From a beta proteobacterium CB (GTDB taxonomy: Bacteria; Pseudomonadota; Gammaproteobacteria; Burkholderiales; Burkholderiaceae), in NCBI GenBank assembly GCA_000342265.1, contig CP004348.1, forward strand, positions 1,860,001-1,924,000: a stretch of DNA of 64,000 bases. The letters run 5' to 3'. The position numbers and the translations under genes were made by a program. Positions 18,363-20,288 of this stretch are shown piece by piece; positions within the stretch are counted from its first letter, which is position 1; each line of letters begins with the position of its first letter. Under the pieces are notes generated by a model, which ran no database searches, had not been told where the DNA came from, and was given only the letters and a program-made list of their open reading frames with translations.

Positions 18363-19253
18363 ATGTTCGGCCTACGTAAAACCCTCGGATCCCTATTTAA
18401 ATCCAATCAGACTGATGAAGCCTGGTTTGATGCCCTAGAAGAATCTCTCATTCTGAGTGATGTGGGCCTACCCACGACTGAGCAACTGATTAGCAAACTT
18501 CGTAAAGCTGCCAAATCAGAAAAGGCCAATAGTCCAGAAGACTTGAAGCAACTTCTCATTGCAGAGGTAGCAAGCCTTTTACAGCCTTTGGAGCCAAATC
18601 CCAATCCTTTATACGTGCATGATCAAAAGACCATGCCGGAAGTGTGGCTAGTTATCGGCGTCAATGGTGCAGGTAAGACCACCACCATCGGCAAGCTCTG
18701 CAGACTCTTTCAGTCGCAAGGTAAATCCGTCTTACTGGCAGCCGGCGATACTTTCCGCGCAGCAGCTCGCAATCAGCTCCTTGAATGGGGTGGTCGCAAT
18801 CAAGTAGACGTCATCATGCAAGAGAGCGGTGATGCTGCAGCGGTCGCACACGATGCCATTCATGCCGCGATTTCTCGCAAGAGCGACATTCTGATTATTG
18901 ATACCGCGGGAAGACTAGCCACTCAAGACCATCTCATGGAAGAGTTGAAGAAGGTCAGAAGAGTCATCGGCAAGGCTCTTCCAGGAGCACCTCACCAGAC
19001 TTTGCTTGTTCTGGATGGCAATACTGGTCAAAACGGTTTAAGCCAAGTAAAGGCCTTTCATACCGCTTTAGGCCTGTCTGCCTTAATCGTGACCAAGCTG
19101 GATGGCACCGCCAAAGGTGGGGTGATCTGCGCGCTTGCTCACACCCTCAATGATGCGTCAAAACCTGCGGTTTTGGCTTTGGGTAAAGGTGAGGGAATTG
19201 ATGATTTAACCCCCTTCACTGCAGCCCAATATTCCTCTGAATTATTCAATTAA
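18363..19253 (+). CDS. ftsY: Signal recognition particle receptor FtsY
   Basis: GTPase that docks SRP-ribosome complexes at the membrane. The NG domain is complete: GVNGAGKTTTIGKL (P-loop), AGDTFRAAARNQL, IDTAGRLATQ, TKLDGTAKGG. At 296 residues it lacks the long acidic A domain of E. coli FtsY (497 residues), leaving only MFGLRKTLGSLFKS before the N domain, likely an amphipathic membrane anchor. In E. coli, ftsY also precedes the cell division ftsEX genes and rpoH. Here rpoH follows directly and ftsEX are absent. Confidence 0.96.
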   Translation: MFGLRKTLGSLFKSNQTDEAWFDALEESLILSDVGLPTTEQLISKLRKAAKSEKANSPEDLKQLLIAEVASLLQPLEPNPNPLYVHDQKTMPEVWLVIGVNGAGKTTTIGKLCRLFQSQGKSVLLAAGDTFRAAARNQLLEWGGRNQVDVIMQESGDAAAVAHDAIHAAISRKSDILIIDTAGRLATQDHLMEELKKVRRVIGKALPGAPHQTLLVLDGNTGQNGLSQVKAFHTALGLSALIVTKLDGTAKGGVICALAHTLNDASKPAVLALGKGEGIDDLTPFTAAQYSSELFN

Positions 19254-19281
19254 ATCAGTGACTTATGGAAGTAAAAAACCA

Positions 19282-19308
19282 TTAGCACTCTCTTGACAAG
19301 AGTGCTAA
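19282..19308 (+). promoter_or_regulatory. CIRCE operator (HrcA-binding site) upstream of rpoH
   Basis: TTAGCACTC (19282-19290), a 9-base spacer and GAGTGCTAA (19300-19308) match the CIRCE consensus without mismatch. The spacer contains TTGACA (19293-19298), a perfect sigma-70 -35 hexamer. HrcA bound here would cover the -35 of a promoter reading into rpoH at 19347. No strong -10 is seen: ACTTAT at 19316-19321 has a 17-base spacer but only three matches. Confidence 0.93.
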
Positions 19309-19346
19309 AATAGAAACTTATCAATACCAATATATATAAAAAGAAA

Positions 19347-20288
19347 ATGGTTCAAAAGAAAGCATTCAAACCGCAATTGCAAGCAAGGCAAACGCTGCCA
19401 GCAGCGCAGACTGCTGCGGCTTCGCTTGCCTTTCCGATGTTGCCTTCCCTTGGGGTCGGCACACTCGACTCATATATCTCGTATGTGAATCGCGTACCCA
19501 TGCTCAGTGCCGCAGAGGAACTTCACCTCGCGCAGGAATTTCGTCGCACTGAAAATGTTGATGCTGCGAAAACTTTAGTTCTCTCACACCTCCGCTTGGT
19601 GGTGTCTGTTGCACGTCAATACCTAGGTTATGGCATTCCACACGCCGACTTAATTCAAGAAGGTAACATCGGCTTGATGAAGGCTGTAAAGCGCTATGAC
19701 CCTAACCAAGGTGCACGCTTAGTCTCTTACGCAATCCATTGGATTAAGGCAGAGATTCATGAGTACATTCTCAAGAACTGGCGCTTAGTTAAAGTGGCAA
19801 CAACTAAAGCACAACGTAAATTATTCTTTAATTTACGCAGCAACAAGCCTACTCTGGCCGCCCTAACACCAAATGAGGTTGAGGCATTGGCCAAGGCTCT
19901 GGATGTCAAAGGTTCTGACGTTAAAGAAATGGAAATGCGTCTTGCTGGTGGCGATGTTGCCCTAGAGGGTGATGACAGTGATGATGAGTCAGCCTACGCA
20001 CCGATTCAATGGTTGGCCGATAGCAGCCAAGAACCAACTGAGATGATGGCTGCTTCTGCAACCGATGATTTGCATGGCCCACAACTGGATCACGCGCTGA
20101 TGGCCTTGGATGAGCGTAGCCGCAATATTGTGCAATCTCGTTGGTTAGCAATGGATGCAGAGGGCAATGGCACAAAGACATTACACGATCTCGCCAGTGA
20201 ATACGGCATCTCAGCAGAGCGTGTTCGTCAGATTGAGACTGCTGCACTTAAAAAAATGCGCAGCCTCCTACAAACTCAAGCTGCTTAA
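19347..20288 (+). CDS. rpoH: RNA polymerase heat-shock sigma factor RpoH (sigma-32)
   Basis: Directs transcription of heat-shock genes. Region 2 is clear (SHLRLVVSVARQYLGYGIPHADLIQEGNIGLMKAV and HWIKAEIHEYIL). The RpoH-specific box QRKLFFNLR is at 156-164, and the region 4 helix-turn-helix (YGISAERVRQIETAALKKMR) ends the protein. There is an N-terminal extension of about 20 residues relative to E. coli RpoH, rich in Ala and Gln. The upstream 93 bases carry a perfect CIRCE element, so HrcA repression is likely in addition to any sigma-32-type control. Confidence 0.96.
   Translation: MVQKKAFKPQLQARQTLPAAQTAAASLAFPMLPSLGVGTLDSYISYVNRVPMLSAAEELHLAQEFRRTENVDAAKTLVLSHLRLVVSVARQYLGYGIPHADLIQEGNIGLMKAVKRYDPNQGARLVSYAIHWIKAEIHEYILKNWRLVKVATTKAQRKLFFNLRSNKPTLAALTPNEVEALAKALDVKGSDVKEMEMRLAGGDVALEGDDSDDESAYAPIQWLADSSQEPTEMMAASATDDLHGPQLDHALMALDERSRNIVQSRWLAMDAEGNGTKTLHDLASEYGISAERVRQIETAALKKMRSLLQTQAA

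Follow-up and report, generated by a model that had tools for sequence, protein, structure and literature searches.

What does a predicted binding site for the repressor HrcA do in front of rpoH, the gene for the heat-shock sigma factor sigma-32? Bacterial heat shock is usually framed as two alternatives, in which the response is governed either by the activator sigma-32, under mostly post-transcriptional control (as in Escherichia coli), or by the repressor HrcA (as in Bacillus). In the 64-kb stretch of DNA analysed here (the window), ftsY and rpoH are collinear, the products of both exceed curated NCBIfam cut-offs, and a CIRCE, the operator of HrcA, lies between the two genes (Table 1). A first-pass annotation had described this element as an exact CIRCE that overlaps the rpoH promoter, and had taken the TTGACA in its spacer as the −35 hexamer of that promoter. 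It had also proposed a cascade that would place the entire sigma-32 regulon under HrcA.

Table 1 Features of the ftsY–rpoH region (positions in the window)
Feature	Position	Strand	Basis
ftsY, gene 5′ of rpoH	18363..19253	+	TIGR00064, 305.4 bits (cut-off 260.7)
GGAAGTA, sharing 5 of 7 bases with GGAACTT, the sigma-E −35 in relatives	19267..19273	+	Read from the sequence; at most a remnant
CIRCE, predicted HrcA operator	19282..19308	+	0 mismatches; co-occurs with hrcA in relatives
Candidate sigma-70 −35, TTAGCA (first bases of the left CIRCE arm)	19282..19287	+	Promoter scan; putative function
TTGACA in the CIRCE spacer	19293..19298	+	Conserved in the genus (16/25 genomes)
Candidate extended −10, TG-C-TAAAAT (right CIRCE arm plus AAT)	19303..19311	+	Promoter scan, weight scan, flanking T
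rpoH, heat-shock sigma factor sigma-32 (313 amino acids)	19347..20288	+	TIGR02392, 384.5 bits (cut-off 323.1)

The predicted operator and its repressor

The element reads TTAGCACTC-TCTTGACAA-GAGTGCTAA, which matches the HrcA operator pattern TTAGCACTC-N9-GAGTGCTAA with 0 mismatches and a 9-base spacer, as the first-pass annotation had stated. It begins 65 bases before the rpoH ATG and ends 38 bases before it, and it is the sole match with ≤3 mismatches within the window; dinucleotide-preserving shuffles yield a mean of 0.03 CIRCE matches per 64 kb.

Absence of hrcA from the genome had been named as a finding that would refute an action of HrcA here, and this refutation fails. The genome (one contig, 2.05 Mb) carries one intact-looking copy of hrcA, a frame of 340 amino acids with the winged-helix and C-terminal domains of HrcA; PF01628 (206.4 bits) and PF03444 (26.5 bits) both exceed the cut-off. 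A genome-wide scan at ≤3 mismatches found two CIRCE sites, the one at rpoH and one 5′ of groES, the latter with 1 mismatch and ending 109 bases before the gene; the same scan found none at hrcA itself. At this threshold, the predicted HrcA regulon of the genome is groESL and rpoH.

The element is also common among relatives of the organism, for which the first-pass annotation had suggested a comparison across Polynucleobacter and other Burkholderiales. Across 40 genomes (this one and 39 relatives), the CIRCE before rpoH has 0 mismatches in 28, 1 in 10, 2 in one and 4 in one (G033), that is, ≤2 mismatches in 39/40. By comparison, 4,880 letter-shuffled rpoH-upstream regions gave no match with ≤3 mismatches and 8 with 4. 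Among the best 80 named loci, the nearest 45 (L203–L247) all have an rpoH CIRCE with ≤2 mismatches, including a Polynucleobacter locus (L203) with an RpoH 89% identical to that of the window and the same CIRCE; on this basis, and following the first-pass annotation, the genus of the window is taken to be Polynucleobacter. Of the 35 remaining loci in that set, 12 have the site at ≤3 mismatches, and it was not found in, for example, the Vibrio, Pantoea, Haemophilus, Halomonas and Photorhabdus loci. A CIRCE before rpoH is not peculiar to this species and, judged from the sequences, is the usual state in the sampled class where hrcA is kept. In Xanthomonas pisi (L252), Luteimonas (L265) and one further locus (L307, from G183), CIRCE-like sites upstream of rpoH show matching changes in both arms (GCAGT…ACTGC type), hinting at a shift of HrcA specificity in this lineage.

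Joint retention and loss of CIRCE and hrcA

Co-occurrence of the operator and the repressor gene was examined at two taxonomic depths. From 150 genomes of the order, five without an rpoH match (G030, G054, G068, G148 and G149) and two with rpoH at a contig end (G104 and G157) were removed, leaving 143. The class set comprised 94 genomes, each from a different family, and was reduced to 85 by removal of 9 without an rpoH match. Presence before rpoH was counted at ≤4 mismatches in the order set.

All 127 order-set genomes with intact hrcA have the rpoH CIRCE (120 at ≤2 mismatches and 7 at 3–4), whereas 14 of the 16 without intact hrcA have no such site (127/127 versus 2/16; Fisher p = 1.4e-17, ignoring relatedness). 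The two exceptions, G075 and G166, are both 84% complete; given this, their hrcA may simply be unsequenced. In the class set the site is found in 55/59 genomes with hrcA and in 5/26 without (Fisher p = 1.4e-11, again ignoring relatedness). Both Fisher values overstate independence, because the genomes are related. The 14 order-set losses are spread over seven families (f4, f20, f25, f34, f40, f41 and f44), and in f4, f25 and f34 other members retain both hrcA and the rpoH CIRCE.

Four class-set genomes have hrcA and no CIRCE within 400 bases before rpoH (G184, G197, G208 and G243). Conversely, a site is present and hrcA is missing in G176, G204 and G209 (62–86% complete), in G246 (3 mismatches) and in G187, which is 97% complete and has a 1-mismatch site. 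G203 has two rpoH genes and a 1-mismatch CIRCE before one of them, and was scored as having the site (54/59 otherwise). With the exceptions named here, site and hrcA are present or absent together across the relatives. G107 was counted among the genomes without intact hrcA as its gene is a fragment with an in-frame stop codon (C49:23722-24117, 41.6 bits); in this genome the rpoH CIRCE is gone and the groES site has 4 mismatches, and the loss of hrcA looks like a recent one.

The groES operator behaves in the same manner. In 49 genomes, some selected for their similarity to the groES of the window and others by hand, the groES CIRCE is present in 38/38 with hrcA and in 1/11 without, the one being G075. 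That repressor and site are lost together at both rpoH and groES would be expected of an HrcA operator but not of a terminator or an RNA hairpin. The co-loss argues strongly, if indirectly, for an action of HrcA on rpoH.

Promoter motifs within the operator

The claim that the operator overlaps the rpoH promoter is supported by the motifs found here, although the arms of the operator are favoured over the spacer TTGACA as the source of the −35. A promoter scan of positions 19150–19420 returned a single sigma-70-like site, TTAGCA-N18-TAAAAT with a TG (9/12 matches), which has the form of an extended −10 promoter (a TGnTAtaaT-like −10 with a −35 at 16–18 bases). Shuffles of the same region yield a mean of 0.5 sigma-70-like sites, so that the scan call by itself is weak. 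In a simple weight scan, a site of this type ranks top in 17/17 genus genomes and in 190/204 genomes overall.

As the arms are fixed by HrcA in any case, independent evidence for a promoter can come only from the flanking bases. The third base after the rpoH CIRCE (19311) is T in 25/25 genus genomes and in 120/122 other genomes of the order, compared with just 6/39 after the groES CIRCE; the putative TGCTAAWAT-like box, formed by the right arm and its flank, is mainly a feature of rpoH. The CIRCE arms (TTAGCA…TGCTAAAAT) are a more likely source of the promoter than TTGACA.

The strongest competing explanation retains control by HrcA and places the −35 at the spacer TTGACA, with a transcription start some 20 bases 3′ of the one expected from the arm-made promoter, or with use of both promoters. 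The hexamer matches a −35 perfectly, and in the genus the spacer is conserved above its surroundings, with a mean pairwise identity of 0.89 across 17 genomes against 0.59 and 0.61 in the flanks (0.74 in the groES spacer). However, TTGACA is confined to the genus, being found in 0/117 RpoE-bearing and 0/5 other RpoE-negative genomes of the order and in 0/58 genomes of the class, and neither the promoter scan nor the weight scan found a good −10 at 16–18 bases downstream of it. Its best −10 hexamers at 15–17 bases in the window, AAACTT and ACTTAT, score 4.0 and 3.7, compared with 8.7 for TTAGCA-N18-TAAAAT. We consider this explanation unlikely and do not adopt TTGACA as the main −35; it may be part of a second, weaker promoter or have a role in contacts with HrcA.

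The unusually conserved spacer (19291–19299) also forms, together with the arms, an offset palindrome, CTCTTG-A-CAAGAG. A sigma-32-like reading of the genus sequences, CTTGACA…CTATTAA, was rejected by eye, the gap being about 19 bases compared with about 15 at the groES of the same genome.

Outside the genus, the arm-made promoter is accompanied by a second set of motifs, the bases 5′ of CIRCE being GGAACTT at a fixed place. At least 6 of these 7 bases occur at −18 to −14 in 71/117 RpoE-bearing genomes of the order (0–6 in any one of seven control windows) and in 30/58 genomes of the class (controls, 0 to 4); at the groES CIRCE the motif was found in 0/39. About 16 bases after GGAACTT, the TC of the left arm and a TNA of the spacer would form a sigma-E-like −10 at the junction of arm and spacer. 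In the order, TNA opens the spacer in 49/73 genomes with the GGAACTT −35 and in 2/33 with ≤4 of its 7 bases (p = 2e-9; 16 of the 122 genomes, those with a 5-of-7 match, were excluded by design), and in 0/39 groES spacers. RpoE-bearing relatives of the order show a GGAACTT at a fixed distance, linked to a TCTNA, as expected of a sigma-E promoter; for the class set this link is no more than suggestive (15/30 versus 5/22; p = 0.08, not significant).

The genus of the window has neither an RpoE over the cut-off nor this −35. RpoE was detected at E ≤ 1e-30 in 132/150 genomes of the order (129 over the cut-off), and over the cut-off in 0/61 genus genomes, where E ≤ 0.001 gave weak matches in 59/61 (best E, 3.4e-13). 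GGAACTT at ≥6 of 7 bases was found in 0/25 genus genomes, and the best match in the window has 5 of 7 (Table 1). The motif is still present in 2/5 RpoE-negative genomes outside the genus (G056 and G144), which counts against a simple RpoE rule.

Three hrcA-less genomes (G057, G246 and G248) have a decayed but recognisable CIRCE in which GAACTT, a TC-type −10 and TGNTAAWAT are retained and other arm bases are changed; two genomes with the same genus label as G057 (G101 and G143) have both hrcA and a perfect CIRCE. In these three cases the proposed promoter bases appear to have outlived the repressor. This is not a rule, and other hrcA-less genomes (for example, G152, G076 and G111) have neither motif. 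At one further locus (L125, from G137, in which no hrcA was found), a different perfect 9-N9-9 palindrome, TCAGGCACT-N9-AGTGCCTGA, replaces CIRCE within 75 bases before rpoH and stands behind GAACTT-N16-TCTTA; it is possibly an operator adopted by another regulator.

Two further explanations were weighed. CIRCE could be a passive leftover that HrcA binds to little physiological effect, while other promoters and regulation of the sigma-32 protein determine the output of rpoH. Control at the protein level is the main one for E. coli sigma-32 (PMC3989490), and rpoH of Xylella fastidiosa rises 2-fold under nitrogen starvation despite a 4-fold rise of hrcA and a fall of groESL (PMC3224663). A site of no effect, however, leaves unexplained why every hrcA-bearing genome of the order retains it and nearly all of the others have lost it, and we regard this explanation as very improbable.

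Least credible of all is a function of the inverted repeat in RNA, as a 5′ hairpin or thermosensor for translation or stability of the rpoH mRNA or as a terminator after ftsY: the arms would pair as a 10-pair RNA hairpin (z = −2.2; 4/200 shuffles fold equally well) and on the minus strand (19308–19282) the element resembles a terminator, a hairpin followed by a T-rich tail (shuffle mean, 0.4), but the plus strand continues with AAATAGAAAC and has no T run, by which a terminator after ftsY was rejected; no Rfam family reaches its gathering threshold at 19200–19600 (best, 16.4 bits against 80), by which a known RNA leader or thermosensor was rejected; conservation extends to sequence beyond the pairing; the repeat disappears with hrcA; and transcription probably begins 3′ of the hairpin, the leader from 19318 folding no better than expected by chance (z = −1.3).

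Proposed control of sigma-32 supply and its setting

We think it likely that CIRCE is both a working HrcA operator and the core of the rpoH promoter, and that HrcA occludes this promoter within a loop gated by GroEL. From the operator, the repressor gene, their co-loss and the promoter motifs, all read from sequence, we infer HrcA binding, the start sites and repression. The dependence on GroEL is taken by analogy from other bacteria, GroE having been reported to stimulate HrcA binding in Campylobacter jejuni (PMC8533110). Free GroEL would keep HrcA active, and HrcA on CIRCE would hold rpoH down, covering the −35 and −10 of the sigma-70 promoter TTAGCA-N18-TGCTAAAAT as well as the −10 of the sigma-E promoter. 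Once GroEL is filled by unfolded protein, or HrcA is inactivated by heat, rpoH and groESL would be released together; sigma-32 would then boost groESL and drive its other targets, and new GroEL would restore HrcA and close the loop. Where relatives carry RpoE, the same operator would be fed by a sigma-E-like promoter (GGAACTT and TCTNA, some 16 bases apart), and the genus of the window, with neither RpoE nor the GGAACTT −35, would retain the sigma-70 form.

The mere finding of a CIRCE before rpoH is not presented as new. Permina and Gelfand (2003), who wrote on this regulon in betaproteobacteria, may have described such sites. In the literature searched, as far as its available parts go, the only case found is that of Geobacter sulfurreducens, in which a perfect CIRCE is predicted 51 bases before rpoH (PMC545781, Table 8). 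It resembles the present one in being a perfect site before the same gene; it concerns one species of another phylum, and its listing includes neither promoter overlap nor co-loss. A term search of PMC5343134 for mentions of HrcA and rpoH returned no match. Likewise, neither an operator that overlaps promoters for sigma-70 and sigma-E nor the pattern of co-loss was met in the available parts of the literature searched.

The operator and the repressor family at rpoH are the same as in the familiar HrcA/CIRCE regulon (groESL and hrcA-grpE-dnaKJ). The arrangement differs: upstream of groES (L369–L398 and L407–L420), CIRCE directly follows a sigma-32-like TTGA…TAT pair (CTTGAAA…CCTATNA) in 30/39 cases, whereas the rpoH operator seems to serve as the promoter in its own right, with a sigma factor as the target. 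Two enterobacterial loci (L273 and L282) have GAACTT-N16-TCTGA before rpoH and no CIRCE, as in the sigma-E-dependent rpoH promoter P3 of E. coli. The P3 type resembles the GGAACTT…TCTNA of CIRCE-bearing relatives, in which the −10 falls inside the operator. In Agrobacterium tumefaciens, groE is under dual control by RpoH and HrcA (PMC11764788), and HrcA and sigma-32 share one chaperonin circuit, as here; both regulators act on groE in that species, whereas here HrcA is placed above rpoH too.

With less confidence, we lean towards a broader reading, in which the ancestral rpoH region of hrcA-bearing Gammaproteobacteria (in the GTDB sense, which includes the betaproteobacteria) was a compact three-input switch. 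Sigma-E and sigma-70 promoters would fire inside the HrcA operator, and the state of the chaperonin would gate both the housekeeping and the envelope-stress supply of sigma-32. After the loss of hrcA, some lineages would have retained the sigma-E promoter but not the operator, as in the E. coli P3 type, and the genus of the window would have kept the operator and lost sigma-E.

The rpoH CIRCE would set the sigma-32 and HrcA designs of the heat-shock response in series and, by the pattern of co-loss, would do so across much of a class. If true, this would explain how the supply of sigma-32 is set where hrcA is retained and suggest what E. coli-type lineages lost along with hrcA, and it would provide a case of one promoter that combines envelope stress with cytosolic folding stress.
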